From NCBI RefSeq assembly GCF_030252345.1, contig NZ_CP126980.1, forward strand, positions 8,937,501 through 9,001,500: a stretch of DNA of 64,000 nt, given 5' to 3'. Shown here piece after piece: positions 40,641-61,720 of this stretch; position 1 is the first letter of the stretch, and the number at the start of each line of letters is the position of its first letter. Position numbers and translations under genes: made by a program. The notes under the pieces were generated by a model. That model ran no database searches and was not told the origin of the DNA. It saw only the letters and a program-made list of their open reading frames with translations. The stretch is from Actinoplanes oblitus. GTDB lineage: Bacteria; Actinomycetota; Actinomycetes; Mycobacteriales; Micromonosporaceae.

Positions 40641-40678
40641 TTGACGCGTCCGATCAGAAAGTTACACTCCTAGTGTAA
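40641..40678 (+). promoter_or_regulatory. Operon promoter with operator palindrome over the -10
   Basis: TTGACG at 40641-40646 and TACACT at 40663-40668 are spaced by 16 bases. The -10 lies inside the perfect palindrome TTACACT-CCT-AGTGTAA (40662-40678). The first gene starts at 40732, leaving a leader of about 55 bases. The layout fits repression by a TetR-type protein, such as the one encoded by the last gene of the operon (49055); the pairing is inference. Confidence 0.6.
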
Positions 40679-40731: not shown

Positions 40732-41448
40732 ATGTCGACGGAATCCCCTGCTCATGAGCTCGCGCTCGACCACATAACGGTTCGCTTCGGCGGCCTTACC
40801 GCACTCGACGACGTCTGTCTGCGGGTGCCCGCCGGACGGATCGTCGGGGTGATCGGGCCGAACGGCGCCGGCAAGACCACCCTCTTCAACGTGATCTGCG
40901 GTTTCGTCACGCCGACCACCGGGGCGCTCACCCTGGACGGCCGGGCCTGGCGGCCGCGACCGCACCACCTCAACCGGCTCGGCATCGCCCGCACCCTGCA
41001 GGGCGTCGGCCAGTTCGCCGGCCTCACCGTGCTGGAGAACGTGCAGGTCGGCATCCGGGCCGGCCGGGAGCGGCAGTCCGAGCGGGACGCGCTCGCCGCC
41101 CTGCGGCGGTGCGGCGTCGACGAGTACGCGTACGCCCCGCCCGGCGCGCTGCCCTACGCGATCCGCAAGCGGGTCGAGCTGGCCCGCGCCCTGGCCGCCC
41201 GGCCACGGATCCTGATGCTCGACGAGCCGGCCGGCGGCCTGGACGCCGACGAGATCCAGTGGCTGGCCGGCCTGATCCGGGACGCCGGCACCACGGTCCT
41301 GCTGGTCGAGCACCACATGGATCTGGTCATGTCGGTCTGCGACGAGATCCTGGTGCTGGACTTCGGCAAACCGATCGCGCTCGGCTCCCCCGCCGAGATC
41401 AGCGCGGACGACAAGGTCACCGAGGCCTACCTGGGGGCGGCCGCATGA
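40732..41448 (+). CDS. Branched-chain-type ABC transporter ATPase, LivG-like
   Basis: A 238-residue ATPase. Walker A is GPNGAGKTT, Walker B ILMLDEPAGGLD and the H-loop LLVEHHMDLVM. The signature motif is degenerate: LPYAIRKRVELARAL instead of the LivG form LSYGQQ. ATG 40732 follows GAGGTGG. The LivF partner gene overlaps by four bases. It is the first gene of a ten-gene operon that continues to the TetR gene at 49633. The cargo is likely an organic acid rather than an amino acid, judging by the catabolic genes behind it; this is inference. Confidence 0.9.
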   Translation: MSTESPAHELALDHITVRFGGLTALDDVCLRVPAGRIVGVIGPNGAGKTTLFNVICGFVTPTTGALTLDGRAWRPRPHHLNRLGIARTLQGVGQFAGLTVLENVQVGIRAGRERQSERDALAALRRCGVDEYAYAPPGALPYAIRKRVELARALAARPRILMLDEPAGGLDADEIQWLAGLIRDAGTTVLLVEHHMDLVMSVCDEILVLDFGKPIALGSPAEISADDKVTEAYLGAAA

Positions 41449-42161
41449 GCGCGCTGCTCGAGGTGGACGACCTGACCGCGGGTTACGGCGCCGCACCGGT
41501 GCTGCACGACGTGCGGTTCAGCATCGAACCCGGTGAGATCATCGCGGTTCTCGGGGCGAACGGGGCCGGCAAGACCACCCTGCTGCGCACCCTGTCCGGC
41601 CTGGTCCGGCCGACCCGGGGCAGCGTCGTCTTCGACGGCGAGGACCTGCGCGGCGTACGCGTCGAGCACCTGGTCCGCCGCGGCATCGCGCACGTGCCGG
41701 AGGGCCGCGGCGTGGTCACCGAGCTGACCGTCGACGAGAACCTGCGGCTCGGCGGGCTGTGGCGGCGCGACCGCGGGGACGCGGCGCGCGCCCTGGACGA
41801 GGTCTACGACCTCTTCCCGGCGCTGGCACAACGACGTGCCAGCGCCGGGCACCAGCTCTCCGGCGGCGAGCGGCAGATGCTCGCGCTGGGGCGGGCGCTG
41901 ATCGGCCGTCCCCGGCTGCTGCTGCTCGACGAGCCGTCGCTGGGCCTGGCCCCGAAAATCACCGCACAGATCCTGTCCCTCCTGCGCGACCTGCGGGAAC
42001 GCACCGGGCTGGCGGTGCTGCTGGTCGAGCAGAACGTGCGCAGCGCGCTGTCCGTCGCGGACGAGGGCATCGTGCTGGCGCTCGGCCGGGTGGTGACCCG
42101 CAACAACGCGGTCGAGCTGCGCGACGACGCCGATCTGCGGCACGCCTACCTCGGCTTCTGA
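41445..42161 (+). CDS. Branched-chain-type ABC transporter ATPase, LivF-like
   Basis: A 238-residue ATPase with all motifs intact: GANGAGKTT, the Q-loop, the signature LSGGERQMLALGRAL, LLLLDEPSLGLAP and the H-loop region LLVEQN (LivF-type, with Q in place of H). IAHVPEGRGVV is a LivF hallmark. It starts at ATG 41445, overlapping the LivG-like gene. It pairs with the LivG-like ATPase to drive LivH/LivM. Confidence 0.92.
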   Translation: MSALLEVDDLTAGYGAAPVLHDVRFSIEPGEIIAVLGANGAGKTTLLRTLSGLVRPTRGSVVFDGEDLRGVRVEHLVRRGIAHVPEGRGVVTELTVDENLRLGGLWRRDRGDAARALDEVYDLFPALAQRRASAGHQLSGGERQMLALGRALIGRPRLLLLDEPSLGLAPKITAQILSLLRDLRERTGLAVLLVEQNVRSALSVADEGIVLALGRVVTRNNAVELRDDADLRHAYLGF

Positions 42162-42175
42162 GAGAGCGGGTTCCG

Positions 42176-43054
42176 ATGGACAGATTCGTTTACCTGACCT
42201 TCGACGGGCTCAGCCGGGGCGCGGTCTACGCCGCATTCGCGCTGGCCCTGGTGCTGATCTGGCGGGCCGCCCGGATCGTCAACTTCGCACAGGGCGCGAT
42301 GGCCGTCGCCGCCGTCTACGTGGCGTACTCGGTGACCGGCGCGACCGGCTCCTACTGGCTCGGCTTCCTCGCCGCCATCGCGTTCGGTCTGCTGCTCGGC
42401 GTCGCCGTGGAGAAGACCGTGATGCGCTTCGTCGACCACTCCTCCCCGCTCAACGGCGTGGTGGTGGCGCTCGGCCTGGTCCTGATCGTGCAGGGCGTGC
42501 TCGGCATCGTCTACGGCAACGAGTACCGGCCGGTGGCGACGCCGTTCCGGCGGGACGCGTTCGAGGTCGGCGGCATCGCGCTGCTGAGCCGCTACGACGT
42601 CTTCGTCTTCGCCGCGGTGGGCACCGTGGTGGTCGCGCTCACGCTGCTGTTCACCCGGACGGCGGTGGGCCTGCGGATGCGGGCCGCCGCGTTCGCCCCG
42701 GACGTCTCGCGACTGCTCGGGGTGCCGGTCGGCGGGATGCTGACGCTGGGCTGGGCGCTGGCCGCCGCGGTCGGGTCGCTGGCCGGGATGCTGGTCGTCC
42801 CGACCGAGCTGGGACTGCACCCGACGGCGATGGACGTGGTCTTCGTGTCGGCGTTCACCGCGGCCGTGGTGGGTGGGCTGGACAGCCCGATCGGAGCGGT
42901 GACCGGCGGGCTGGTCGTCGGGCTGCTGCTCTCCTACGTCAGCGGCTACCTGGGCGCCACCGTCGCCCCGATGGCGGTACTGCTCCTGCTCGTGGTGGTG
43001 CTGCTCGGCCGGCCGGGCGGACTCTTCTCCAGTTCGAAGGCGAGGCTGGCGTGA
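42176..43054 (+). CDS. Branched-chain-type ABC transporter permease, LivH-like
   Basis: A 292-residue permease with about eight hydrophobic helices. LSRGAVYAAFALALVLIWRA and RIVNFAQGAMAVAAVYVAY at the N-terminus, and GVPVGGMLTLGWALAAAVGSLAGML near the coupling region, are LivH features (the GxxxxGxxxNFAQG pattern). ATG 42176 lies 14 bases after the LivF stop, behind GAGAGCGGG. The gene ends in an overlap with LivM. Confidence 0.9.
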   Translation: MDRFVYLTFDGLSRGAVYAAFALALVLIWRAARIVNFAQGAMAVAAVYVAYSVTGATGSYWLGFLAAIAFGLLLGVAVEKTVMRFVDHSSPLNGVVVALGLVLIVQGVLGIVYGNEYRPVATPFRRDAFEVGGIALLSRYDVFVFAAVGTVVVALTLLFTRTAVGLRMRAAAFAPDVSRLLGVPVGGMLTLGWALAAAVGSLAGMLVVPTELGLHPTAMDVVFVSAFTAAVVGGLDSPIGAVTGGLVVGLLLSYVSGYLGATVAPMAVLLLLVVVLLGRPGGLFSSSKARLA

Positions 43055-44061
43055 CGGACGTAGAAGAGAAGCGGGCGGCGGCCGCCGTACCGGAAATCGT
43101 CCGGCGGCGGAAGCGGATCTGGCCGGTCGTGCCGATCGTGATCGGCGCCCTCCTGGTGGTGCTGCTGACCTACACGCTGCCGCCGTTCCGGAACTACCAG
43201 CTGGCCACGATCGGCGCCTACTTCACGGTGACGGCCGGGCTGACCGTCCTGACCGGACTGAACGGGCAGCTGTCGCTGGGGCACGGCGCGCTGATGGCGA
43301 CCGGGGCCTACACGTTCGCGCTGACCCAGAACCGGTGGCTGCACACGCCGGTCAGCTTCGTGGCGGCGATCCTGGTCACCACCCTGGCCGGTGTGGTGAT
43401 CGGGCTGGCCGCGGCCCGGCTGCGCGGACCCTACCTGGCCGGCCTGACCCTGGCGGTGGCGGTCGTGGTGCCGTCGGTGACCAGCACGTTCGACGAGACG
43501 TTCAACAGCGACATGGGACTGTCGGTGGCGCTCGACCCGCCGCCCGGGACCATCCCGATGGAACGCTGGCAGGCCTGGCTCTGCTGGACGGGCGCGCTGG
43601 TCACCGTGCTGTCGCTGGCCACCCTGGTGCGCGGGCGGTTCGGGCGGGACCTGCGCGCGGTGCGGGACGACGAGACGGCGGCCCGGCTGGCCGGGGTCGA
43701 CGTCGCCCGTACCAAGGTCCTGGCCTTCGTGGTCAGCGCGGCCTGCGCCGGTCTGGCCGGCGCCCTCTTCGCGGTGCTGGCGCAGAGCGTCTCACCCGGC
43801 GCCTTCCCGCTGACCCTGTCGCTGTTCCTGGTGATGGCGATCGTGATCGGCGGCCTGGGCCGGCTGGTCGGCGCGTTGCTGGGAGCGGTGCTGCTGGTGG
43901 CGCTGCCGGCGCTGGCGCAGTCGGCCGGGGAGAGCTCCGGATCGCAACACCTGGAGGGGAACCTCGCCCTGGTGGTCTTCGGCGTGGTGCTCGTAGTCGT
44001 CATGCTCGCCGCCCCGGGCGGGCTCGCATCGATTCGATTCAATCTGTGGAGGAAGCGATGA
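43051..44061 (+). CDS. Branched-chain-type ABC transporter permease, LivM-like
   Basis: A 336-residue permease with eight to ten hydrophobic helices. GLNGQLSLGHGALMATGAYTFA is the LivM signature, and AARLAGVDVARTKVLAFVVSAACAGLAGALFA the coupling loop with its conserved alanine and glycine. The GTG start at 43051 overlaps the LivH stop; the stop overlaps the binding-protein ATG. The first 30 residues are a charged cytoplasmic tail. Confidence 0.9.
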   Translation: MTDVEEKRAAAAVPEIVRRRKRIWPVVPIVIGALLVVLLTYTLPPFRNYQLATIGAYFTVTAGLTVLTGLNGQLSLGHGALMATGAYTFALTQNRWLHTPVSFVAAILVTTLAGVVIGLAAARLRGPYLAGLTLAVAVVVPSVTSTFDETFNSDMGLSVALDPPPGTIPMERWQAWLCWTGALVTVLSLATLVRGRFGRDLRAVRDDETAARLAGVDVARTKVLAFVVSAACAGLAGALFAVLAQSVSPGAFPLTLSLFLVMAIVIGGLGRLVGALLGAVLLVALPALAQSAGESSGSQHLEGNLALVVFGVVLVVVMLAAPGGLASIRFNLWRKR

Positions 44062-45317
44062 AACGCACCACGGCGGTGTTCCTCACCGTCCTTCTCTTCG
44101 CCGGGGCCTGTGACGGCTCCTCTTCGACGAGCGGATCCGGCAGCAGCGTTCCGGGGGTGACCGACAGCGAGGTGGTCGTCGGCACGCACATGCCGCTGAC
44201 CGGCCCGGCCGCGGCCGGCTACTCCAAGATCGCGCCGGCCACCAAGGCCTACTTCGACTTCGTCAACGCGAACGGCGGGATCAACGGCCGGAAGATCACC
44301 TACAAGGTCAAGGACGACGCCTACAACCCGGCGACCACCCAGCAGGTGGTGCGGGAGCTGGTGTTGCAGGACAAGGTGTTCGCGATCCTGAACGGCCTGG
44401 GCACCCCGACGCACACCGGCGTGCTGGACTTCTTGAAGACCAACAAGGTGCCGGACCTCTTCGTGGCCAGCGGCAGCCGCAACTGGAACCAGCCGGACAA
44501 GTATCCGGGCACCTTCGGCTTCAACCCGGACTACACCGTCGAGGGCAAGATCCTCGGCACCTACGTGAAGCAGAACCTGGCCGGCAAGAAGGCCTGCTTC
44601 CTGGGCCAGGACGACGATTTCGGCAAGGACAGCCTGGCCGGGATCGAGAAGACCCTGGGCCCGGTGGCGGCCAAGCAGAGCTACGTGACCAGCAACCCGA
44701 ACGTCGGCCCGCAGATGGGCGCGCTCAAGGCGGCCGGCTGCCAGGTGGTGCTGATGGCCACCATCCCGGGCTTCACCGCGCTGTCGATCGGCACCGCCGC
44801 CAAGATCGGCTTCAAGCCGCAGTTCGTGGTCAGCAACGTGGGCGCCGACCCGGCCACCGTCAGCAAGGCGCTGGGGGCCGCCGCGCCGCTGCTGGAGGGC
44901 GTGGTCTCGACCAACTACCTGCCGCTCACCACCGACGACGCCAGTCCGTGGATCCAGCTCTACAAGAAGGTCAACGCCCAGTACAACAACAACGCGGAGT
45001 TCGACAACAACGTCGTGTACGGGATGTCCGTGGCGTACCTGTTCGTCCAGTCGCTGCAGAACGCCGGCAAGGACCTGACCCGTGACTCGATCATCGACGC
45101 GGTGCAGAAGAACGGGTTCAAGGGTCCGGGCCTGGTGCCGCTGCGGTTCTCCGCCACGGATCACGCGGGGTACGGCGGGGAGCAGCTCACCACCGTCAAG
45201 AACGGCAAGGCGGAGTTCTTCGGGCAGGCGTACACCACCGACGACGGGGACGGTGCGGTACAGCCGTACACCGCGCAACCCGTGACACCCCCGCAGAACG
45301 GAATCCCGGCAGCGTAA
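44058..45317 (+). CDS. Branched-chain-type ABC transporter substrate-binding lipoprotein
   Basis: A 419-residue periplasmic-type binding protein of Peripla_BP_6 fold. MKRTTAVFLTVLLFAGACDG is a lipoprotein signal with the acylated cysteine at 18, then a serine-rich spacer. The mature part opens with DSEVVVGTHMPLTGPAAAG and has NGGINGRKITYKVKDD, both typical. It captures the substrate outside the cell for the LivH/LivM/LivG/LivF complex. The stop is TAA at 45315, and the first SDR gene starts 43 bases later. Confidence 0.92.
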   Translation: MKRTTAVFLTVLLFAGACDGSSSTSGSGSSVPGVTDSEVVVGTHMPLTGPAAAGYSKIAPATKAYFDFVNANGGINGRKITYKVKDDAYNPATTQQVVRELVLQDKVFAILNGLGTPTHTGVLDFLKTNKVPDLFVASGSRNWNQPDKYPGTFGFNPDYTVEGKILGTYVKQNLAGKKACFLGQDDDFGKDSLAGIEKTLGPVAAKQSYVTSNPNVGPQMGALKAAGCQVVLMATIPGFTALSIGTAAKIGFKPQFVVSNVGADPATVSKALGAAAPLLEGVVSTNYLPLTTDDASPWIQLYKKVNAQYNNNAEFDNNVVYGMSVAYLFVQSLQNAGKDLTRDSIIDAVQKNGFKGPGLVPLRFSATDHAGYGGEQLTTVKNGKAEFFGQAYTTDDGDGAVQPYTAQPVTPPQNGIPAA

Positions 45318-45359: not shown

Positions 45360-46106
45360 ATGGCGGATCAGGTGGCAGTCGTGACGGGGGCCAGTCGCGG
45401 TATCGGGTTCGCCATCGCGCAACGCTTCGTCGCCCAGGGCGCGAAGGTCGCGATCACCGGGCGGGACGCCGACGCCCTCCAGGCCGCGGTGAAGGAGCTG
45501 GGCGGCTCCGAGGTGGCCATCGGGGTGGCCGGCAAGGGCGACGACGCCGGGCACCGGACGGCCGTGGTGGAGGCGGTGACCGCGAAGTTCGGGCCGGTCA
45601 CCACGCTGATCAACAACATCGGGATCAACCCGGCGTACGGGCCGCTGGCCACCCTCGACCTGAACGCGGCGCGCAAGATGGCCGAGGTCAACCTGATCGG
45701 CACGCTCGGCTGGGTGCAGGAGGCGCTGCGCGGCGGGCTGGCCGAGAACGGCGGGTCGGTCGTCAACATCTCCTCGGTCTCCGGGGTACGCCCGGCGCCC
45801 GGTATCGCGTTCTACGGCACCACCAAGGCCGCGCTGATCCACCTCACCGAGGAGCTGGCGGTCGAGCTGGCCCCGAAGATCCGGGTGAACGCGGTGGCAC
45901 CGGCGGTGGTCAAGACCCGGTTCGCGGCGGCGCTGTTCGAGGGGCGCGAGGAGCAGGTGACGGCGACGTACCCGCTGAAGCGGCTGGGCGCCCCGGAGGA
46001 CGTGGCCGGCACCGTGGCGTTCCTCTGCTCGCCGGACGCCTCGTGGATCACCGGGCAGACCATCGTGCTCGACGGTGGCGTGACGCTGACCGGGGTGGTC
46101 GAGTGA
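45360..46106 (+). CDS. SDR-family oxidoreductase (FabG-like)
   Basis: A 248-residue short-chain dehydrogenase. The cofactor loop is [12 protein letters not shown] stands for the usual NNAG, serine is in NISSVSG, and YGTTK supplies the Tyr/Lys pair. The end [10 protein letters not shown] is FabG-like. ATG 45360 follows AGGAGGT (45347-45353), the best ribosome site in the operon. It would oxidise or reduce a hydroxy/keto-acyl intermediate. Its stop overlaps the next SDR start. Confidence 0.9.
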
Positions 46107-46876
46107 AGCGGGTGGTCGTCACCGGCGCCGGTGGCGGGATCGGCGCGGCGCTGGCCCGGCGGTTCGCCGCCGACGGCGCCCGGGTGATCGTCAGCGACCT
46201 GAACGCGGACGCCGCCTCGGCGGTCGCCGCGGACATCGGCGGTCTCGCGATCACCGCCGACGCGGCGTCCGAGGCCGACACCCGGCGCCTCGTCGACGCC
46301 GCTTTCTCGGAGCTGGGCGACATCGACCTGTTCTGCTCGAACGCCGGCGTGCTCTCGCCCGGCGACGAGAACACCCCCGACCGGTTGTGGGAACGCGACT
46401 ACGGCGTGAACGTGCTGTCGCATGTCTACGTGACCCGCGCGCTGCTGCCGAGGTGGCTCGACTCGGCGACGCCGAAGCGCCTGCTCGTCACGGTGAGCGC
46501 GGCCGGTCTGCTGACCCTGCTGGGCAGCGCGAGCTACTCGGTGACCAAGCACGCGGCGCTCGCCTACGCCGAGTGGCTGCGGGCCACCTACGCCCACCGT
46601 GGCCTGGTCGTCCAGGCGCTCTGCCCGCAGGGCGTCCGCACCGACATGCTGACCGGCGACGACGCCCGGGGCAGCGGCAGCGCGGCACTGCTCGCCGAGG
46701 GGGCGCTGGAACCGGCCGCGGTGGCCGACCTGGTCGCCCGGTCGCTCGACGGGACCGGGTTCCTGATCCTGCCGCATCCGGAAGTCGCCGACTACTACCG
46801 CTTGCGCGCGACCGATCCGGACCGTTGGCTAGGCGGCATGAACAAGATGCAGCGCGGATTCGAGGCGGCCCGATGA
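46103..46876 (+). CDS. SDR-family oxidoreductase
   Basis: A 257-residue short-chain dehydrogenase with [13 protein letters not shown], serine in VSAAGLL and YSVTK. It begins with GTG at 46103 inside the previous stop (GTGA) and overlaps the kinase-like gene by four bases. Homologous SDRs are commonly found beside APH-fold kinases and ACAD10/11-type dehydrogenases. Substrate is unknown. I propose a hydroxyacyl-CoA or keto-acyl-CoA. Confidence 0.88.
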
Positions 46877-47853
46877 AGGGCCTGGACCTGGCGAAGCTCC
46901 AGGCGTACCTGGACAGCCCGCCGCTGACCGGGACCATGTTCGCCGGTGGCCGGTCGAACCTGACGTACGCGGTGACCGACGGGACGAACCGCTGGGTGCT
47001 GCGCCGGCCGCCGCTCGGGCACGTGCTGCCCACCGCGCACGACATGGCCCGCGAGCACCGGGTCCTGGCCGCGCTCTCGCAGGCCGGTTTCCCGGTGCCC
47101 AGGCCGGTCCTGCTGTGTGCCGACGCCTCGGTCATCGGCGCACCGTTCTACCTGATGGAGCACGTCGACGGCACGATCTACCGGGATGCCGGCCAGTTCG
47201 CCGGGGTCGACCTGCGGGAGCTGACCTTCACCCTGGTGGACACGCTCGCCGACCTGCACTCGCTCGACCCGGAGAAGATCGGGCTGGGCGATTTCGGCAA
47301 GCCGGAGGGCTTCAACGCCCGTCAGGTGCGCCGGTGGAAGCAGCAGCTGGACGCGAGCCGCAGCCGGGAGCTGTCCGGCATCGAGGAGCTGCACGCCCGG
47401 CTCGCCGCGGACATCCCGGCCGGCGGCCCGGGCGCCGTCGTGCACGGCGACTTCCGGCTGGACAACGTGCTCATCGGCGACGACCTCGGGGTCAACGCGG
47501 TGCTCGACTGGGAGATGTCGACGCTCGGCGACCCGCTCAGCGACCTCGCCCTGATGCTCGTCTACGCCGGCCGCCCGCTGCTGGTCAAGGACGGCAAACC
47601 GGTCGCCCCGGCCGACCTGCCCGGCCACCCGGCGCTCGACGAGATGGCCGCCCGGTACGCCCAGCGCAGCGGCCGCGACGTCGGCGACCTGCACTGGTAC
47701 GTCGGCTTCGCGGCGTTCAAGCTCGCCGTCATCCTCGAGGGCGTGCACTACCGCTACACCAAGGGACAGACCGTCGGCGCCGGCTTCGACACCGTTGGCG
47801 CGATGGTGCCCGAGCTGATCGAGCAGGGCCACCGAGCGCTGGAAGGACACTGA
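46873..47853 (+). CDS. APH-fold phosphotransferase, ACAD10/11- and LvaA-related
   Basis: A 326-residue kinase of the aminoglycoside-phosphotransferase fold. The catalytic loop VVHGDFRLDN lies near residue 190 and the metal aspartate in LDWEMST near 212; FAGGRSNLTYAV is the glycine-rich loop and WVLRRPP supplies the ATP-binding lysine/arginine position. This subfamily corresponds to the kinase domain fused to the dehydrogenase in human ACAD11 and to LvaA of levulinate breakdown, both acting on 4-hydroxyacyl-CoA. Here it is a separate gene whose stop overlaps the dehydrogenase start by one base. It is not an antibiotic resistance gene. Confidence 0.87.
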   Translation: MKGLDLAKLQAYLDSPPLTGTMFAGGRSNLTYAVTDGTNRWVLRRPPLGHVLPTAHDMAREHRVLAALSQAGFPVPRPVLLCADASVIGAPFYLMEHVDGTIYRDAGQFAGVDLRELTFTLVDTLADLHSLDPEKIGLGDFGKPEGFNARQVRRWKQQLDASRSRELSGIEELHARLAADIPAGGPGAVVHGDFRLDNVLIGDDLGVNAVLDWEMSTLGDPLSDLALMLVYAGRPLLVKDGKPVAPADLPGHPALDEMAARYAQRSGRDVGDLHWYVGFAAFKLAVILEGVHYRYTKGQTVGAGFDTVGAMVPELIEQGHRALEGH

Positions 47854-49058
47854 TGGACTTCGAGTTCGACGCGACGACCGAGGACTACCGCAAGCGGTTG
47901 CTCGGGTTCATGGACGAGCACATCTACCCGTTCGAGAAGGACTTCCACGCCGCCGGGGACGGGTGGGAGCCGCCCGCCGTGCTGGCCACCATGCAGGCCG
48001 CCGCGAAGGAGGCCGGCCTGTGGAACCTGTTCCTCCCGGGTTCGCACGGCGCCGGGCTGACCAACCTGCAGTACGCGCCGCTGGCCGAGATCATGGGACG
48101 CAGCCCGGCGATCGCACCGGCCGCGTTCAACTGCAACGCGCCGGACACCGGCAACATGGAGGTGCTCGCCGAGTTCGGCACCCCGGAGCAGCAGGAACGC
48201 TGGCTCAAGCCGCTGCTGGCCGGGGAGATCCGGTCCGCTTTCGCGATGACCGAGCCGCAGGTGGCCTCCTCGGACGCCACCAACATCGGCACCCGGATCG
48301 AGCGGGACGGCGACGAGTACGTCATCAACGGCCACAAGTTCTTCATCACCGGCGCGATGAACCCGAACTGCAAGATCTTCATCGTGATGGGCAAGACCGA
48401 CCCGGACGCCGACCGGCACGTGCAGCAGAGCCAGGTCCTGGTGCCGCGGGACACCCCGGGCCTCACGGTCAAGCGCGGGATGACCGTCTTCGGGTACGAC
48501 GACGGTGACCACGGCGGTCACGCCGAGCTGATCTTCGAGAACGTCCGGGTGCCGGTGAGCAACCTGATCGGCGTGGAGGGCGGCGGCTTCGCGATCTCCC
48601 AGGCCCGGCTCGGCCCCGGCCGGATCCACCACTGCATGCGGCTGATCGGCATGGCCGAGCGCGGCCTGGAGCTGATGTGCCGGCGGGCGCTGGCGCGCAC
48701 CCCGTTCGGCAAGCCGCTCGCCGAGCAGGGCGTCGTCCAGGACTGGATCGCCGAGTCCCGGGTGCGCATCGAGCAGGCCCGCCTGCTGGTGCTCAAGGCC
48801 GCCTGGCTGATGGACACGGTCGGCAACAAGGGCGCGCACACCGAGATCCAGGCCATCAAGATCGTGGTGCCGCAGACCGTCGAGTGGATCCTGGACAAGG
48901 CGATCCAGGCGCACGGCGCGGCCGGCACCAGCCAGGACACCCCGCTCGCCCAGCTCTGGGTGGCGGCCCGGACGCTGCGGCTCGCCGACGGCCCCGACGA
49001 GGTGCACAAGCGGTCGCTGGCCCGGCGGGAACTGCACCGCTACCGGAGCCGTCCGTGA
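47853..49058 (+). CDS. Acyl-CoA dehydrogenase, ACAD10/11 type
   Basis: A 401-residue FAD enzyme. AFAMTEPQVASSDATNI is the flavin-binding region, and RTPFGKPLAEQGVVQDWIAE and the QAHGAAGTSQDTPLAQLW motif match the C-terminal domain. At the position of the classic catalytic glutamate (YEGT in MCAD) it has LADGPDEVH near residue 378, the hallmark of ACAD10/11-like enzymes. Those convert 4-phosphoacyl-CoA rather than carry out ordinary alpha,beta-dehydrogenation. The length fits a single ACAD domain. It overlaps the kinase gene by one base and the TetR gene by four. Confidence 0.9.
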   Translation: MDFEFDATTEDYRKRLLGFMDEHIYPFEKDFHAAGDGWEPPAVLATMQAAAKEAGLWNLFLPGSHGAGLTNLQYAPLAEIMGRSPAIAPAAFNCNAPDTGNMEVLAEFGTPEQQERWLKPLLAGEIRSAFAMTEPQVASSDATNIGTRIERDGDEYVINGHKFFITGAMNPNCKIFIVMGKTDPDADRHVQQSQVLVPRDTPGLTVKRGMTVFGYDDGDHGGHAELIFENVRVPVSNLIGVEGGGFAISQARLGPGRIHHCMRLIGMAERGLELMCRRALARTPFGKPLAEQGVVQDWIAESRVRIEQARLLVLKAAWLMDTVGNKGAHTEIQAIKIVVPQTVEWILDKAIQAHGAAGTSQDTPLAQLWVAARTLRLADGPDEVHKRSLARRELHRYRSRP

Positions 49059-49633
49059 CCCAGCCGCCGCGCGTCGACGGTCGCACCGCCCGGTCCGAGC
49101 GGACCCGCAACGCGATCGTCGACGCACACCTCCGGCTGATCCGGGACGGCGACCTGCGCCCCACGGCGGACCGGATCGCCAAGCTGGCCGGGGTCTCGCT
49201 GCGCGCGCTGTGGAGCCACTTCGCCGACATGGAGTCGCTGATGGCGGCCAGCGGGCAGCGGGTCCTGGACGAGCGGGACGCGTCCTACCGGCAGATCTCG
49301 CCGGAGCTGCCGCTGGCCGAGCGGATCGACGCGTTCTGCCGGCAGCGGGCCCGGATGCTGGAGGAGATCGGGCCGGCCGCTCGCGCCTCGGCGCTGAAGG
49401 AACCGTTCTCCATCGGGTTGCAGCGGTACCGCAGGCTTCACGTCGCCCGCGTGCGCGACGAGCTGACCAGCACGTTCCCGGAGGAGATCGGGTCCGACGA
49501 GGAGTTGCTCAACGCGCTGACCACGATCAGCCTCTGGCCGGCCTGGTCGACGCTGCGGGAGGCGATGGAACTGCCTGTCGAGTCCGCGCGGGCCGCCCTG
49601 GCCCGCGGGATCCGGGCCCTGCTCGGCGGCTGA
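49055..49633 (+). CDS. TetR-family regulator
   Basis: A 192-residue regulator. Residues 15-60 form the helix-turn-helix (RNAIVDAHLRLI, TADRIAKLAGVSLRALWSHFAD). The C-terminal part, with no clear family, is the presumed ligand domain. GTG 49055 overlaps the ACAD stop. As the last gene of the operon it is the natural candidate for binding the palindrome at 40662-40678. A 20-bp hairpin follows at 49643. Confidence 0.87.
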   Translation: MTQPPRVDGRTARSERTRNAIVDAHLRLIRDGDLRPTADRIAKLAGVSLRALWSHFADMESLMAASGQRVLDERDASYRQISPELPLAERIDAFCRQRARMLEEIGPAARASALKEPFSIGLQRYRRLHVARVRDELTSTFPEEIGSDEELLNALTTISLWPAWSTLREAMELPVESARAALARGIRALLGG

Positions 49634-49702: not shown

Positions 49703-52700
49703 TCACCGGACCACCCGGATCCTGAGCACCGAGCTGGCGGAGCCGGTGACCGTGCCCGACCCCGAGTACCGCGCCTCGATCCGGTAGGTGCCCCTCCTGG
49801 TCAGCGGACCGAGGTCCAGGACGGCCCGGCCGCCGGTCAGGGTCGCGGTGACCCGGATCCGGGATGTGCCGTTGACCGCGAGCACCCGCACCGTTCCGTA
49901 CGCCGGCGCCCCGGACACGCTGCGCACCCGGACGGTGAGGTGCGTCTTACCGCCGGCGCGGACCCGGCCGGCCGTCGCCGACACCGTCGTCCTGGACGAC
50001 GCGGCGACGACCTCGAGGGTCAGCCCCGCCGAGGAGCCGGCGTACCTGTCGTCGCCGGCGTAGACCACGCGCAGCTTCCTGGTTCCCACGCCGATGGTGT
50101 TCGCCAGCTGGATCCGGGCGTGGCCGCCGGACAGCACACCGTCGCCCACCGAGGTGGCGCCGAGCAGCACCCGCACGACGCCCGAGGGCTTCGCCGCGGA
50201 CGCGCCGGCGACCGTCACGTCGACCACCGGCGAGGTGCCGTAGGTCGCCTTCGCCGGCCGCACCGTGGCCCTCGTGGTGGTCGGCGCCGGCACGACACCC
50301 ACGGCCGGCACGACGACCCGGTTCGCCGTCTCGACGTTCCCGGCGACGTCGGTCGCCCGGTAGAGCAGCGCGGTCGCGGCCCGTCCCACGCGCACCGGCC
50401 CGGTGTACGCCCACCAGGTCGCCCCGCCGTCCAGCGAGTACTCCAGGCCGCGGACGCCGGAGTGGCCGTCGGCCGCCCGCAGGCTCACGGTACGGGCGTC
50501 GGCGTCCACCGTCGCCTGCGAGACCGGCGCGGTCGTGTCGACCCGTACGGTCACCGAGCCCGTGCCGGAGCTGTTGCCCGCGGCGTCGGTGGCGGTGTAC
50601 TCGACCACGTGGATGCCGTCGGCGCCGAGGGTCAGCGGCTGGGCCTGGTCCACCCACGGACCGGCCGGCTCGCCGGCGCGGGTGACCCGGACCTTGGGGA
50701 CCACGGCACCGTCCACGGCGTCGGTGGCGGTCACCGTCACCGTCGCCGGAGTCCGGAACCAGCCGGTGCCCGGCTCGGCCGGCGACACGACGGCGCCCAC
50801 GGTGGGCGCGTCCACGTCCGGGACGGTGACCACGGCGGTGGCCTTGACGTTCTGGCTCTCGGCGATGGTGCCCGAGACGGTGAACGTGCCGGGCCGGGCG
50901 TACGCCGCGGGCGGCACGGCGTCCCACACCACCGCGACACCGGCCGACGAGCCGTCCGCGTGCCGGGCGGTGACCCGCGCGGGCAGGGCCGGCGCGGTGC
51001 CCGCCGGCGTGGTCAACGGAACCGGGTCCACGGCGGTGACCAGCAGGTTCGGCTGGTAGGTGGCGAGCAGCCGGTCGTACTCCCGCTGGGTGACCGGCAG
51101 GACGGTGCCGTGCCGGGGGCTGGCCGGCAGCGAGTACGACGAGACCTTGGTCCAGAGGCCTGCGGCCAGGTCGGTAGTGGTGAACGGTACGTAGCCCTGG
51201 CCGCCGAACTCGTCGATGAACAAATACCAGCGGTCCTCGGTGTTCGACTTGAACACCAGCGGCCCCTCACCGGCGCTGACCGCGCCGGAGCCGATGCACT
51301 CCCGGACGAACTGGTAGTCGGTGCTCATGATCGAGGTGGACTTCTCCTCGATCAGGAACTTGGCGCACGGCGTGCTGGACGTGTTGTTGCGCTCGTCCTT
51401 GGTGAACCGGTAGTACGTACCGTCGTGCTCGATCATCGTCGAGTCGATCACCGAGTACCCCGGGTCCTTCCACACCCTGGGCTCGCTGAACGTGTAGAAG
51501 TCCCGGGTGGTGGCGTACATCATCCGGTTGTACGTGCTCCCCGCGTGCGCGGTGTCCGCCGGGTCGTAGAGCTTCGAGGCCCAGAAGACGACGTACGCGC
51601 CGATCGAGCGGTCGTAGAACGCCTCGGGCGCCCAGGTGTTGCCGGCGGTGTCCGGGGAGATCTTCACGAGCCGCTGGTTGGTCCAGGTGACCAGGTCGGT
51701 GGACTCCCACACCATGATCGACTTGCTGCCGCGACGCTGCGAGCCGTCCCAGTCGCCGTTGCCGTTGATCTTCAGGTCGGTGGCGATCTGGTAGAACTTG
51801 TCGCCCTCCGGCGAGCGGATGATGAACGGGTCGCGCAGGCCCTTCGTGCCCAGCTCCGACGTGAGAACCGGCTTGGCGTCGTTGACCTCGCGGTAGGACA
51901 GCGGGTCGTTCGCCTTGCTCACCGCGAAGTAGAGCTGCTCGCCGTTCGCGGTGCCCTCACCGGTGAAGTAGCTGAACAGATAGCCGGTCTTGGCGGCGGC
52001 GGCCGGCAGCTCGGGCACCGTCGCCGTCATCGTCCGGGTGGCCGAGGCCTCGCCCACCCGCGCCGTCGCGGTCAGGGCCACGGTGGCCGGCCCCTTGCCG
52101 GCCGCCGGCCGGTGCACGACACCGGAGCCGTCGATCACGTCCGGCCGGTCCGAGGACCAGGTGACCACGGCGCCGTTGTCGCCGGTGGCCGGCAGCGTCA
52201 GATTTCCCCGGACGTCGTCGATGTCGTGCACGACGAGCGCGGCGGCCGCCGCCTTCGCGGCCTCCCCGTCGCCGAGCTTCGGCAGCACCGTGACGGCGAA
52301 GGTCTTCGTGGCGGTCGACGCGCCGCGGGTGAGGGTGGCGGTGAGCGTCGCGGTGGCGGCCGGCTGCCCGGCCGCCGGCCGGGTCACCACGCCGCCGGCG
52401 GTGACGACCGCCGGGTCGCTGGTCGACCAGGACAGGGCGGACCCGTGCGGCGCGGTCGCCGGCAGGCTGAGGTCGGCGGCCAGGGCGGACGTGTCGCCCA
52501 GGGTCAGCGCGGCCCGGTCGGCGGCCAGTTCGTCGGCGACGACCGGGCCGGCCAGGGTACGCACCTCGGTGTCGCCGAGCGCCCGGTCGTACACCCGGAA
52601 GTCCTTGATCTTGCCCTTGAGGAGCCGGTCACCGCTGTAGTCGGACTTGCCGAGGTAGTTCGCCGTCGTCCTGCCGCCACCGATGTCGCCCGGCTTGATG

Positions 52701-56943: not shown

Positions 56944-58032
56944 TCAGAGGCGGACGACGGAGCGGGCGCCCTCGCCCCGGGCCATGCGGTCGAAGGCGGC
57001 CGGCACGTCGGCCAGCCCGATCCGATCGGTGATCAGGTGGTCCAGCGACAGCTTCCCGTCGAGGACCTCGCGGGCCAGGGCCGGCACCTCGACGTCCGGG
57101 TCGGCCTGGCCGTAGACCGAGGCGCGCAGGGTCCGCGCCGAGGAGAAGATGTCCAGCGCGCCGAGCTGCACCATGTCGTCGGCCGCGCCCATCCCGACCA
57201 CGGTGACCTGGCCGCCGCGCCGGGTGGCCCGCCACGCCGCCCGGATCGTCGACGCCCGGCCCACGCACTCGATGGCGTGGTCGGCGCCGCGCCCCTCGGT
57301 GCGCACCCGGACGTCCTTGGAGAGCGCGTCCGAGGAGACCACGAAGTCGGTGGCGCCGGCCGCCTCGGCCAGCCCCTTCTTCGCCTCGGTGACGTCGACA
57401 GCGATCACCTGCCCGGCGCCGGCCGCCCGGGCCGCCGCGACCACCGACAGCCCCACCCCGCCGAGGCCGATGACCAGCACCGACTCGCCCGGCTGCACCC
57501 GCGCGGTGTTGCGGACCGCGCCCGAGCCGGTCAGCACCGAGCACCCGAGCAGCGCGGCGAGTTCGAAATCGAGCTCTTCCGGTACGCCGATGACAGCGTT
57601 CTCCGGCGCCACCACCTGCTCGGCGAACGCGCCCAGCCCGAGGCACACGTGCACCGGCGCCCCGTCCAGGGTCATCCCGTTCTCCAGCGCCGCCACCCCG
57701 GAGGAGGTGGCGCAGAGCCACGGCTGAGCGTGCTCGCAGAACCAGCAGCTCCGGCACGGCGGCTGCCAGTTCAGCACCACGTGGTCGCCGACCGCGGCGC
57801 GGGTGACGTGCTCGCCGACCTCGACCACCTCGCCGGCCGCCTCGTGCCCGAGGACCAGTGGGTGCGGCGGGCGCAGCGTTCCGTTGATCATCGACAGGTC
57901 GGAGTGGCAGACGCCGGCCGCCCGGATCCGGACCCGCACCTGGCCGGGACCGACCTCGGGCAGCCGCAGCTCCTCGACGGCGGCCGGGACACCTGCCGTC
58001 CGGACCACCAGTCCGGGAATGTAGTGGCTCAT
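56944..58032 (-). CDS. Zinc-dependent alcohol dehydrogenase
   Basis: A 362-residue medium-chain dehydrogenase of class III-like (MDR) type. The catalytic zinc ligands are in GVCHSDL and GHEAAG plus the later cysteine in LGCSV; the structural zinc loop is C-x2-C-x2-C-x7-C (CRSCWFCEHAQPWLC). VIGLGGVGLSVVAAA is the NAD fold. The protein oxidises an alcohol to an aldehyde, which the co-transcribed aldehyde dehydrogenase would finish. ATG 58032 overlaps the aldehyde dehydrogenase stop (ATGA). Confidence 0.92.
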   Translation of the reverse strand: MSHYIPGLVVRTAGVPAAVEELRLPEVGPGQVRVRIRAAGVCHSDLSMINGTLRPPHPLVLGHEAAGEVVEVGEHVTRAAVGDHVVLNWQPPCRSCWFCEHAQPWLCATSSGVAALENGMTLDGAPVHVCLGLGAFAEQVVAPENAVIGVPEELDFELAALLGCSVLTGSGAVRNTARVQPGESVLVIGLGGVGLSVVAAARAAGAGQVIAVDVTEAKKGLAEAAGATDFVVSSDALSKDVRVRTEGRGADHAIECVGRASTIRAAWRATRRGGQVTVVGMGAADDMVQLGALDIFSSARTLRASVYGQADPDVEVPALAREVLDGKLSLDHLITDRIGLADVPAAFDRMARGEGARSVVRL

Positions 58033-59438
58033 CGCTGGATCGCCTTCACCTGCTGGAACTCCTCCAGACCGAACCGGCCCAGCTCGCGGCCGACGCCGGA
58101 CTGCTTGTACCCGCCGAACGGGGCGAACGGGTTGAACGCGCCGCCGTTCACGTCGACCGCCCCGGTACGCAGCCGCCGGGCCACCGCGAGAGCCCGCTCG
58201 TCGCCGCCCCAGACCGCACCGGCCAGGCCGTACTTCGAGTTGTTGGCGATCGCCACGGCCTCGTCGTCGGTGTCGAACGGGATGATCGACAGCACCGGCC
58301 CGAAGATCTCCTCCTGGGCTAGCTCGCTGTCCGGGTCGACGTCGGCGAAGACGGTCGGCGCCACGAAGTGCCCGGTCGCCGGCACCGGGGCGTCCAGCCC
58401 ACCGGCCACCAGCCGGGCCCGCGCCCGCTCGATGAAGCCGCGGACCCGGTCCCGCTGCCCGGCCGAGACCAGCGGGCCGAGCCGGGTGCCCGGGTCGAAC
58501 GGGTCGCCGACGGTGTAGCCGGCCGCGGTCTTGGCGGCCAGCTCGACCGCCTCGTCGTAGTGGCTGCGGTGCACCAGCATCCGGGTCCACGCCGTGCAGG
58601 TCTGGCCGGAGTTGAGGAACGCGTTGCCGACCCCGACCTTGACGGCCTTGACCAGGTCGGCGTCCGCCAGGATCAGGTTCGCCGACTTGCCGCCCAGTTC
58701 CAGGGAGACCTTGGCGATCCGGTCGGCGGCCGCCTTCGCGATGGCCCGGCCGGTGGCGGTGGAGCCGGTGAACGAGATCATGTCGACGTCCGGGTGCCCG
58801 GCGATGGCCGCGCCGACCACCGGGCCGGTCCCGGTGACCAGGTTCAGCACGCCGGCCGGCAGCCCCGCCTCGTGCGCCGCGTCGAACAGCAGGTACGCCA
58901 CCAGCGGGGTCAGCTCGCTCGGCTTGAGCACCACCGTGCAGCCGGCCGCCAGGGCCGCGCCCACCTTCGCCACCACCTGGTGCAGCGGATAGTTCCACGG
59001 GGTGATCGCGCCGACCACGCCGGCCGCCTCCCGGACGATCAGCGAGTTACCCACCGTCTCCTCGGTCACCGGCTGGGCGGCCAGCTCGGCGTACCCCTTG
59101 AGCACGGCGAGCGGCAGCCCGGCCTGGACCGCCTGAGCGACCTTGAGCGGGGTGCCGAGCTCCAGCCCGACGGTGCGGGCGATGTCCCCGGCCCGGGAGG
59201 CGAGCGCCTCGTGCAGCCGGCCGAGGGCCGCGCCGCGCTCGGCCATCGGCAGCCCGGCCCAGCCGTCGAAGGCCCGGCGGGCGGCCGAGACGGCGAGGTT
59301 CACGTCCTCGGCGGTGCCGGCCGGCACGTGCCCGATCACCTGCTCGGTGTACGGGTTCTCCACCTCGATCCGGTCGCCGGAGTCCGGCGGCACCCACGCG
59401 CCTCCGATGTAGAGCTGTTCGCGGAATTCCGACGTCAT
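58029..59438 (-). CDS. NAD-dependent aldehyde dehydrogenase
   Basis: A 469-residue aldehyde dehydrogenase. ITPWNYPLHQVVAKVGAAL and VVLKPSE are cofactor-binding segments, the general base is in LELGGKSA, and the nucleophile cysteine in NSGQTCTAW. It converts an aldehyde to an acid. It lies between the TetR gene (overlap ATGA) and the alcohol dehydrogenase gene. The substrate is probably a medium or long chain aldehyde, given the acyl-CoA synthetase opposite. Confidence 0.93.
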   Translation of the reverse strand: MTSEFREQLYIGGAWVPPDSGDRIEVENPYTEQVIGHVPAGTAEDVNLAVSAARRAFDGWAGLPMAERGAALGRLHEALASRAGDIARTVGLELGTPLKVAQAVQAGLPLAVLKGYAELAAQPVTEETVGNSLIVREAAGVVGAITPWNYPLHQVVAKVGAALAAGCTVVLKPSELTPLVAYLLFDAAHEAGLPAGVLNLVTGTGPVVGAAIAGHPDVDMISFTGSTATGRAIAKAAADRIAKVSLELGGKSANLILADADLVKAVKVGVGNAFLNSGQTCTAWTRMLVHRSHYDEAVELAAKTAAGYTVGDPFDPGTRLGPLVSAGQRDRVRGFIERARARLVAGGLDAPVPATGHFVAPTVFADVDPDSELAQEEIFGPVLSIIPFDTDDEAVAIANNSKYGLAGAVWGGDERALAVARRLRTGAVDVNGGAFNPFAPFGGYKQSGVGRELGRFGLEEFQQVKAIQR

Positions 59439-60064
59439 CGGCGTACCCCCTGGTCGTAGTGATCGGACAGACCGGCCAGGAGCAGGTCCAGCCCGAGTTC
59501 GAAGGCGCCCTCGTCGACCGCGGCGCGGTGGGCCGGCAGCTCGTGGGCGCGGTGCAGGTGCGGATAGGTGTCGTAGAGCCCCGGGTCGTCAGCGAAGCCG
59601 AGCGCGAACGAGCCGAGCGCCGACCCGGTGATCAGGTAGCGCATCAGCGCGCCGATGTGGGTGGCCCGCGACCGGGACCAGCCGGCGTCGATCAGCGCGC
59701 CGTAGACCGCCTCGGCCATGGCCAGCCCGTGCGGCCGCCGGCCGGGCCCGGTGGCCAGCACCGGGATGATGTGCGGATGGGCGGCCAGCACCGCGTGGTA
59801 CGACTTCGCCCAGAGCCGCAGCCCCTCGCGCCAGTCGCAGTCGGCGAACACCCCGATGTCCACCCGCGCCACCACCGCCTCGGCGACCGCGTCGACGATC
59901 TCCGCCTTGGTGGCGAAGTGGTTGTACAGCGACGGGCCCTGCACGCCCAGCTCGGTGGCGAGCCGCCGCATGGAGAGCGCGTCCAGGCCCTCGGCGTCGA
60001 TCAGAGCGGACGCGGCCTCGACGATGCGCTCCCGGGTCAGCAACGCCTGCCGGGGCCGAGCCAT
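59435..60064 (-). CDS. TetR/AcrR-family regulator
   Basis: A 209-residue regulator with an N-terminal helix-turn-helix (TRERIVEAASALIDAEGLDALSMRRLATELGV, SLYNHFATKAEI) and a TetR_C-type ligand domain (WREGLRLWAKSYHAVLAAHP). It is the first gene of the three-gene unit that includes the aldehyde and alcohol dehydrogenases, and divergent from the acyl-CoA synthetase gene 102 bases away. The palindrome at 60102-60132 between them is its probable operator. Confidence 0.9.
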   Translation of the reverse strand: MARPRQALLTRERIVEAASALIDAEGLDALSMRRLATELGVQGPSLYNHFATKAEIVDAVAEAVVARVDIGVFADCDWREGLRLWAKSYHAVLAAHPHIIPVLATGPGRRPHGLAMAEAVYGALIDAGWSRSRATHIGALMRYLITGSALGSFALGFADDPGLYDTYPHLHRAHELPAHRAAVDEGAFELGLDLLLAGLSDHYDQGVRR

Positions 60065-60166: not shown

Positions 60167-61720
60167 ATGACGACTCTGTCCCTGGCCACCGTGCTGGCCG
60201 AGAGCGCGCGCCGTTATCCGGACAAGGTCGCGGTGATCGACGCGGGCGCCCGGATCACCTACCGCGAGCTGTGGCAGCAGACCCGGGAGTACGCCGCCGG
60301 GCTGCGCGAGCTGGGTATCGGCGCCGGCCACACGGTCGCCGTGATGATTCCGAACGTCGCCGACTTCCCGCGGGTGTACTACGCGGCGCTGGCCGTGGGC
60401 GCCCGGGTGGTACCGGTCTCGCTGCTGCTGACCGCCGAGGAGGTCGGCTACGTGCTGACCGACAGCCAGGCCGACCTGCTCGTCACGCACTCGGCGTTCC
60501 TGCAGGTGGGCGCGGCGGCGGCGGGGCTGTCCGGCACCCCGCTGGTGAACGTCGGCCCGCTGCCGGCCGAGCTGCCGAACCCGCCCCGGCGGCTGGAGGA
60601 CGTGGCCGCGTCGGTGCCGGCGCTGCACACCTACGTGACCCGGGAGGCCGAGGACGTCGCGGTGATCCTGTACACCAGCGGCACCACCGGCAAGCCGAAA
60701 GGCGCCCTGCTCACCCACCTCAACCTGGTGATGAACGCCGCGGTGAACGTGTTCGACGTGCACCCGATCACCGGCGACGACGTGGTGCTCGGCTGCCTGC
60801 CGCTGTTCCACACGTTCGGCCAGACGGTCGGGATGAACGCCACCTTCCGGCTCGGCGGCACGCTGGTGCTGCTGCCCCGGTTCTCCGGCGAGGCGGCGAT
60901 CGAGCTGATGCTGCGGGAGAACGTGTCGATCTTCCACGGCGTGCCGACCATGTACATCGGCCTGCTCGAGGCGGCCGGGCGGGCGGAGCAGCTGCCCAAG
61001 CTCAAACTCTGCGTCTCCGGTGGCGCGTCCCTGCCGGTCGCCGTGCTGGAACGGTTCGCCGAGGCGTTCGGCTCGCACATCTGGGAGGGTTACGGGCTGT
61101 CCGAGACGTCGCCGACGGCGACGACCAACCAGCCGGCGTACGGCGCCAAGCCGGGCACCGTGGGACACCCGATCTGGGGCGTCGAGGTGGAGATCGCCCG
61201 CCCCGAGGTGCCGGAGCGCATCGAGTTCCTGTCGGCCGGCGAGCTCGGCGAGATCGTGGTCCGCGGGCACAACGTCTTCGCGGGTTACCTCAACCGGCCG
61301 GAGGCGACCGCCGAGGCCATCGTCGACGGCTGGTTCCGCACCGGCGACCTGGGCGTCAAGGACGACGAGGGGTTCATCAGCATCGTCGACCGGACCAAGG
61401 ACCTGATCATCCGGGGCGGCTTCAACGTCTACCCGCGCGAGGTCGAGGAGGTGATCGCCCGCCACCCGGCGATCCAGCAGGTCGCGGTGATCGGCGTGGC
61501 GGACGAGACGCACGGCGAGGAGATCTGCGCGGTGGTGGTGCTGGACGACGCGAAACCCGACGAGAACCGCCTGACCGAGCAGGAGCTGATCGACTGGTCC
61601 CGGGAGCGGCTGGGCAAGCACAAGTACCCGCGGCAGGTCCGGTTCGCCGAGGCGCTCCCGCTCGGACCCAGCATGAAGGTCCTCAAGCGGGAGCTGCGCA
61701 AGCAGTACTCGAGCAAGTAG
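60167..61720 (+). CDS. Long/medium-chain acyl-CoA synthetase
   Basis: A 517-residue adenylate-forming enzyme that activates a carboxylic acid to its CoA thioester. The P-loop ILYTSGTTGKPKG lies near residue 165, GYGLSETSPT near 308, and the hinge/aspartate in DGWFRTGDLG near 385; the C-terminal catalytic lysine region is GPSMKVLKREL. The ATG at 60167 follows GGAGGGG at 60154-60160. The size and CoA-ligase pattern are those of fatty-acid and related synthetases; chain length is not deducible. It converges with the Nudix gene after 15 bases. Confidence 0.93.
   Translation: MTTLSLATVLAESARRYPDKVAVIDAGARITYRELWQQTREYAAGLRELGIGAGHTVAVMIPNVADFPRVYYAALAVGARVVPVSLLLTAEEVGYVLTDSQADLLVTHSAFLQVGAAAAGLSGTPLVNVGPLPAELPNPPRRLEDVAASVPALHTYVTREAEDVAVILYTSGTTGKPKGALLTHLNLVMNAAVNVFDVHPITGDDVVLGCLPLFHTFGQTVGMNATFRLGGTLVLLPRFSGEAAIELMLRENVSIFHGVPTMYIGLLEAAGRAEQLPKLKLCVSGGASLPVAVLERFAEAFGSHIWEGYGLSETSPTATTNQPAYGAKPGTVGHPIWGVEVEIARPEVPERIEFLSAGELGEIVVRGHNVFAGYLNRPEATAEAIVDGWFRTGDLGVKDDEGFISIVDRTKDLIIRGGFNVYPREVEEVIARHPAIQQVAVIGVADETHGEEICAVVVLDDAKPDENRLTEQELIDWSRERLGKHKYPRQVRFAEALPLGPSMKVLKRELRKQYSSK

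Follow-up and report, generated by a model that had tools for sequence, protein, structure and literature searches.

A ten-gene Actinoplanes operon with a split ACAD11-type kinase and dehydrogenase, probably for the uptake and catabolism of 4-hydroxy acids

In mammalian ACAD11 a kinase and an acyl-CoA dehydrogenase (ACAD; CoA, coenzyme A) are joined in one chain. Two adjacent genes of Actinoplanes oblitus (NZ_CP126980.1) resemble these halves, and they raise the question which reaction they serve and on which compound. The window, the whole stretch of 64,000 nucleotides that was analysed, corresponds to positions 8937501-9001500 of the 9.8-Mb single-contig genome. Ten genes lie in it head to tail on the plus strand, from livG at 40732 through livF, livH, livM, livK, two short-chain dehydrogenase genes (SDR1 and SDR2), the kinase and the dehydrogenase to a terminal TetR gene ending at 49633. 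The nine junctions measure -4, 14, -4, -4, 42, -4, -4, -1 and -4 bases, so tight that the ten genes read as one transcription unit without space for another small gene. For the last five genes, SDR1 to TetR (45360-49633), an earlier sequence-only reading had reported coordinates, a one-base overlap and motifs, and all of these were borne out: the TGA of the kinase and the ATG of the dehydrogenase share base 47853, and the kinase motifs HGDFRLDN and LDWE are residues 191-198 and 211-214. Pfam matches were consistent with all ten gene assignments, the TetR falling just below the cut-off; from SDR1 to the dehydrogenase they gave two SDRs, an APH kinase (186.8 bits, cut-off 23.2) and four acyl-CoA dehydrogenase models on the dehydrogenase. 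We give a probability of about 0.78 to the reading that the operon is induced by its substrate and serves to import and break down carboxylic acids, one or a few, that bear a 4-hydroxy (or 4-oxo) group.

Compared with solved structures, the dehydrogenase scored highest with 4hr3 (430 bits) and with ACAD11 (8v3u, 8v3v and 2wbi, 423-427 bits), while the next ACAD reached 159 bits. A FastTree phylogeny was calculated from 79 proteins, namely the window protein, 60 actinobacterial homologues, seven plasmid-borne ones, 4hr3, ACAD11 and nine ordinary ACADs; the latter included six of the seven paralogues of the own genome, the seventh having no open frame that passed the filter. Seventy ACAD11-like proteins formed one clade without any of the nine ordinary ACADs (local support 0.795, branch length 1.24). 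By alignment, R252, H260, R263 and D379 of the window protein are the equivalents of R626, H634, R637 and D753 in ACAD11. Within the ACAD11-like set these residues were kept in 70/70, 69/70, 70/70 and 70/70 proteins, whereas the ordinary ACADs had the equivalents of R626, H634 and D753 in none of nine cases and that of R637 in two. Mutation of R626, H634, R637 or the base D753 abolished or impaired the ACAD step of ACAD11 (PMC12440821). Identity to ACAD11 was 54 % over the aligned positions. The own genome holds a single gene of this type: the nearest paralogue found by search was 33 % identical, and the six paralogues in the alignment only 25-29 %. Score, tree and active-site residues, including the catalytic aspartate in place of glutamate, thus support an assignment of the dehydrogenase to the ACAD10/11-LvaC type. 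Clustering with ordinary FadE enzymes, set beforehand as the refuting outcome, was not what the tree gave; the protein stood with ACAD11 and apart from the FadE-type paralogues, a grouping that speaks against an ordinary FadE identity.

The kinase gave a similar picture. Its best structural matches were 9o56 (237 bits), ACAD11 (185-189 bits) and 3dxp (160 bits), and the remaining seven did not exceed 52 bits. The catalytic aspartate and the supporting asparagine (D220 and N225 in ACAD11) as well as R176 were invariant in the alignment of 52 proteins, among which were ACAD11 and that of the window. An arginine beside the αC glutamate was equally invariant (52/52); it was equated with R86 of ACAD11 by motif only, the printed chain count being 83 where the other residues were off by only 1. 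Each of the two CoA-side arginines occurred in one of five unrelated APH proteins of the own genome. A midpoint-rooted tree placed the window protein and ACAD11 within a clade of 49 of the 52 proteins (support 0.902), the five other APH proteins outside; two further paralogues of the seven were dropped, as no open frame passed the filter. Identity to the ACAD11 kinase was 38 % over aligned positions. Score, tree and active-site residues support a kinase of the ACAD10/11-LvaA type, and the earlier proposal that kinase and dehydrogenase are the two halves of ACAD11 agrees with all three lines of evidence for either protein. The references for the family placement were ACAD11 and bacterial homologues other than LvaA and LvaC of strain KT2440.

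Both proteins also travel together. Among 60 actinobacterial ACAD loci, chosen from genus, family and phylum matches, 46 had the kinase within 3.5 kb of the ACAD, and the other 14 genomes all held it elsewhere (E 1.2e-54 or better). In genome G109 the kinase adjoins a second ACAD copy; the kinase match of L128 was weak (139 bits). Genomes without an ACAD at E 1e-100 had the kinase in 5 of 40 cases, and in none of 20 within the same family, counts that compare related genomes at differing thresholds (1e-100 for the ACAD; for the kinase 1e-15 by search or 1e-5 by local profile), so that a Fisher value calculated for the association is not to be taken at face value. The five positive genomes may contain a more distant ACAD. 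LivK was not found in any of the 40 ACAD-negative genomes, in a search that ran without a positive control. A conventional FadE with an unrelated small-molecule kinase beside it, engaged in the β-oxidation of ordinary fatty or branched-chain acids, would suit the Pfam and NCBIfam labels, which are only general (ACAD, APH, LIV), but this explanation is contradicted by the tree, the aspartate base, the HCMR plus R626 set and the co-occurrence of the kinase, and we consider it hardly credible.

Assignment of the ACAD10/11 reaction dates from work published in 2024 and 2025. Homology and gene context make a 4-hydroxyacyl-CoA route well supported for the operon. The LIV-type ABC importer would take up the acid, and a FadD-type ligase, probably the neighbour at 60167-61720, would form the CoA thioester; a 4-oxo acid, if taken up, would be reduced to the 4-hydroxyacyl-CoA by an NADP-type SDR1. 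The kinase would phosphorylate the 4-hydroxyl group in an ATP-dependent reaction. The FAD-using ACAD11-type enzyme, with Asp379 as base and R252, H260 and R263 holding the phosphate, would then expel phosphate and yield a 2-enoyl-CoA, and ordinary β-oxidation (hydratase, SDR or FabG, thiolase) could complete the breakdown. The sequence-only reading had named 3-hydroxyacyl-CoA as the outcome of the rearrangement by LvaA and LvaC; this has to be corrected, as the ACAD step yields a 2-enoyl-CoA, whose hydration to 3-hydroxyacyl-CoA is only partial (PMC11342911).

The ACAD was present in all 67 genus genomes with at least 80 % identity. Of the 150 genomes of the family 122 had it, spread over 37 of 44 genera, and of the 296 genomes of the phylum 107. 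All 20 Actinoplanes loci examined, from the 67 genomes searched, had the ten genes in the same order, so the arrangement is not a matter of chance. In relatives' loci, open reading frame (ORF) calling gave some spurious frames and served only to locate candidates. Twenty-one loci came from other genera of the family (L109-L128 and L132). Five of them carried all ten genes (L110, L111, L113, L115 and L124, with extra genes in between in L111), L112 had nine, lacking SDR1, and L109 retained SDR1 through TetR. In the six-locus group of L110-L113, L115 and L124, genes on the opposite strand lay between livK and SDR1, a MaoC gene in L110 and L111 and a thiolase gene in L110, L113, L115 and L124; a pair of ACAD genes preceded livG in five of the six, and L111 showed one of the two. 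The order was rearranged to LivGFHMK-kinase-ACAD-ligase in L126 and L127, and L141 had ACAD-ligase with LivK (55 %) on the other strand. This recurrence of importer, kinase, ACAD and ligase in rearranged form is the best argument for a shared pathway. Outside the genus, 8 of 40 loci had a full importer close to the ACAD, and most of the distant loci consisted of kinase and ACAD only or of the ACAD alone; an importer is clearly no constant element of this kind of locus.

A dedicated importer in front of the enzymes had been proposed, and LivGFHMK (40732-45317) proved to be part of the same operon and to be maintained across the genus. It is a LIV-type ABC importer, composed of two ATPases, two BPD_transp_2 permeases and one Peripla_BP_6 binding protein. 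The predicted model of LivK had a predicted local distance difference test score (pLDDT) of 86.9. Its profile matched best to 4n03, by title a fatty-acid transporter binding protein; in a fold comparison for the ligand class the top three structures tied in Z. In SDRs, an arginine at the end of β2 usually indicates NADP and an aspartate NAD as cosubstrate. SDR1 has Arg35 at this position and the catalytic Ser139, Tyr152 and Lys156, kept in 36/36 proteins, and SDR2 has Asp32 with Ser132, Tyr145 and Lys149, kept in 34/34. With such a pair of an NADP-type and an NAD-type enzyme, SDR1 could work as a reductase (4-oxo to 4-hydroxy) and SDR2 in the oxidising direction. The keto/hydroxy steps assigned earlier to the two SDRs were worded too strongly; SDR1 shares only 38 % identity with the SDR of a kinase/ACAD cluster in Azoarcus.

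The proposed chemistry is known from the lva operon of Pseudomonas KT2440. In both systems kinase and ACAD are encoded separately and are accompanied by an SDR, a CoA ligase and transport, and both share the conversion of 4-hydroxyacyl-CoA via 4-phosphoacyl-CoA to enoyl-CoA, here predicted. Homologues of lvaABCD are cited from Alpha-, Beta- and Gammaproteobacteria (PMC6692424). If the operon were a genuine lva system of Actinobacteria, acting like that of Pseudomonas on levulinate (4-oxopentanoate), this would explain the shared kinase and ACAD types and would give the NADP-type SDR a role as LvaD. A cluster can be of the lva type without lvaB, as in P. citronellolis LA18T, whose cluster shares kinase, ACAD and SDR and encodes in addition a histidine phosphatase, an ActP-like symporter and an LvaR homologue, the symporter gene being among the most levulinate-induced genes (PMC6692424). 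The Actinoplanes operon, however, belongs to the Actinomycetota and has two SDRs, a ligase outside the operon, and a LIV-type ABC importer and a TetR regulator with its own palindrome in place of LvaF/LvaG-type transport and the sigma-54-type LvaR (PMC6692424). Compared with the Azoarcus cluster, the ligase is, like SDR1, distant (only 32 % identical), and the extra ACAD pair of the relatives would be unnecessary for a five-carbon acid. ACAD10 accepts 4-hydroxyhexanoyl-CoA (PMC11342911), and the cavity of ACAD11 was suggested to fit much longer chains (PMC12440821), so the enzyme type is no pointer to a five-carbon substrate. Levulinate is not favoured as the default substrate on account of importer, regulator, the identities of SDR1 and ligase and the ACAD pair of the relatives, and we regard a levulinate operon as improbable. 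On a plasmid of Azoarcus sp. KH32C (L172, 1641-8248), AMP-binding protein, thiolase, histidine phosphatase, kinase, SDR and ACAD genes stand in a row that resembles the lva-like cluster of P. citronellolis.

LvaB, the 12-kDa partner of LvaA in the lva operon, had been reported as missing, and this was seen as setting the locus apart. The first part stands, as no small gene fits on the plus strand between SDR1 and TetR. Its absence is not distinctive, because ACAD10 and ACAD11 work without LvaB and the P. citronellolis cluster lacks lvaB. Recombinant kinase and ACAD parts of ACAD10 were sufficient in vitro, and the main text of that report does not mention LvaB; a Burkholderia pair was able to replace the ACAD10 domains (PMC11342911). 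Mammalian ACAD11 and ACAD10 share the order kinase-ACAD and the catalytic and phosphate-binding residues with the Actinoplanes pair (PMC12440821, PMC11342911), which differs in being two proteins, without the HAD domain of ACAD10. The genome was searched for LvaB through DUF6285 only, presumably the family of this protein, and DUF6285 was not found.

A larger acid is a tentative alternative, possible although the balance is against it: a terpenoid, steroid or polyketide fragment would acquire its C4 hydroxyl group by ring or lactone opening, and the kinase/ACAD pair would remove this group in mid-pathway. It would explain the additional genes (ACAD pair, MaoC, thiolase) found within or beside the operon of other genera, and it suits the fatty-acid title of the best LivK match. 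Tsukamurella tyrosinosolvens carries homologues of most of the enzymes within about 13 kb of plasmid NZ_LR134470.1 (L167, 2088-15045): SDR1 64 %, SDR2 54 %, kinase 46 %, ACAD 71 % and ligase 44 %. The same cluster joins to them a thiolase (74 % to that of L115), a MaoC (63 %) and an ACAD pair (68 and 45 %), matching other genera of the family, together with phosphotriesterase-family, HAD, quinone oxidoreductase, FabG and MFS genes; the LIV importer was not among the 20 features shown. The separate FabG suggests that SDR1 and SDR2 perhaps do not carry out a plain 3-hydroxyacyl-CoA step. The phosphotriesterase-family gene is only a tentative lactonase candidate, which weakens the case for a larger acid, as do the window operon itself, which is without the ACAD pair, MaoC and thiolase, and the lack of an identified ring-cleaving enzyme within the operon.

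The pair might instead remove a self-made or foreign γ-lactone, as a signal or for detoxification, and not supply carbon. In favour of this, the ACAD was found throughout the genus, which resembles a core function rather than an optional way of obtaining carbon, and in Streptomyces sp. NBC_00388 a kinase/ACAD pair lies beside AfsA-related and KAS III (β-ketoacyl synthase III) genes; the dedicated importer, on the other hand, points to an external substrate, and this function appears quite improbable for the operon. On the plasmid of strain NBC_00388 (L166, 7853-18311) the ACAD11-type pair adjoins KAS III, CoA-transferase and AfsA-related genes, as if it took part in a cluster for the biosynthesis of a lactone or butenolide. 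More speculatively, and in our estimate rather unlikely in this full form, the genes may represent a widespread and as yet undescribed actinobacterial route, core to Actinoplanes, which imports 4-hydroxy acids that exceed levulinate in size and derive from γ-lactones (fragments of terpenoids, polyketides or signal lactones), processes them by phosphorylation and phosphate elimination and leaves the remainder to a dedicated ACAD pair, MaoC and thiolase.

In the favoured reading, an uptake and catabolic operon for 4-hydroxy or 4-oxo acids, the genes would be induced by the substrate. A palindrome, TTACACTCCTAGTGTAA, overlaps a promoter-like sequence upstream of livG. Of the 20 genus loci, 17 had its arms without a mismatch and L106 with one; L107 and L108 were without a close copy. 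The six other-genus loci with importer and SDRs had one mismatch in five cases and three in L110; no counterpart was found in L125-L127. The 9.8-Mb genome contained one exact copy, and allowing up to two mismatches added one place, versus six for a reversed control pattern; distant operator targets (a regulon) were not found genome-wide at this tolerance. We infer that the terminal TetR binds the palindrome, which would repress the operon over the importer promoter until a pathway metabolite releases the regulator. As both activities occur together with an importer and with a regulator for which one operator is predicted, the inducer should be findable by reporter screening, which would name the substrate. 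Once named, it would show that the catabolism of 4-hydroxy acids is fundamental to a group of soil actinobacteria, and it would provide importer, sensor and enzymes for levulinate or lactone bioconversion. Overall, a 4-hydroxyacyl-CoA chemistry of the operon is probable. The chemistry is known elsewhere; what is new is its occurrence in Actinobacteria together with an ABC importer, a TetR with a single palindrome and the companion genes. Among the matches listed in a literature search, with subscription papers and preprints mostly outside its reach, there was no paper on the operon or on LvaA/LvaC-type genes in Actinobacteria.

The sequence-only reading had considered the operon a possible complete uptake and breakdown system. 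This goes too far: by Pfam, the operon proteins include no acyl-CoA ligase, thiolase or hydratase. A thiolase orthologue (73 %) is located elsewhere in the genome (G000:C1:856790), with no other homologue of the query set in the surrounding 18 kb. The candidate ligase is a separate neighbour; together with the alcohol and aldehyde dehydrogenase genes it lies 7-12 kb downstream of the operon, and these two and a second TetR gene are divergent from it (Table 1). Ligase, alcohol dehydrogenase and aldehyde dehydrogenase were within about 17 kb of the operon in all 14 genus loci examined downstream and in 4 of 6 other-genus loci, and ligase homologues (48-52 %) were directly 3' of the ACAD gene in L126, L127 and L141. 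The ligase is nearest to general FadD models, so it is a candidate for the pathway by position only. In L183, L184, L187-L190 and L192, ordinary ACAD homologues (29-32 % to the query) immediately precede the ligase. The window is without them, and its lineage may have lost these genes.

Table 1. Operon genes, sequence elements and downstream neighbours, in coordinates of the window
Feature	Position	Strand	Evidence or remark
Promoter-like TTGACG-16-TACACT upstream of livG with overlapping palindrome TTACACTCCTAGTGTAA (40662-40678), putative operator	40641..40678	+	single copy in window
LivG-type ABC ATPase	40732..41448	+	ABC_tran, BCA_ABC_TP_C; conserved
LivF-type ABC ATPase	41445..42161	+	top model LivF, 230 bits, under its cut-off of 441
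LivH-type permease	42176..43054	+	BPD_transp_2
LivM-type permease	43051..44061	+	BPD_transp_2
LivK-type substrate-binding protein	44058..45317	+	Peripla_BP_6, 188 bits
SDR1, FabG-like short-chain dehydrogenase, NADP-type	45360..46106	+	Pfam; Arg at end of β2
SDR2, short-chain dehydrogenase, NAD-type	46103..46876	+	Pfam; Asp at end of β2
APH-fold kinase, ACAD11/LvaA type (predicted 4-hydroxyacyl-CoA kinase)	46873..47853	+	structure scores, Pfam, tree
ACAD11-type acyl-CoA dehydrogenase	47853..49058	+	structure scores, tree
Codons for R252...H260-C-M-R263 (equivalents of ACAD11 R626, H634, R637)	48606..48641	+	
Codons for ADGPDEVH, dehydrogenase residues 378-385 (D379, equivalent of catalytic D753 of ACAD11)	48984..49007	+	
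TetR-type regulator, last gene of the operon	49055..49633	+	TetR_N 21.7 bits, cut-off 24; in all 20 genus loci examined
Zinc alcohol dehydrogenase (class III/mycothiol-FDH-like), syntenic neighbour	56944..58032	-	
Aldehyde dehydrogenase, syntenic neighbour	58029..59438	-	
Second TetR regulator	59435..60064	-	
FadD-type acyl-CoA ligase, candidate activating enzyme	60167..61720	+	

Right after the operon, the minus strand encodes an α-arabinofuranosidase-like protein with OmpL47-type domains (49703-53269), which was unmatched in the 20 downstream loci of relatives. Further downstream, at 56164-56870, a small RelE-like ORF precedes a helix-turn-helix ORF, and the two may form a toxin-antitoxin pair, as judged by eye from the translation; the RelE-like ORF was matched in 3 of the 20 downstream loci.

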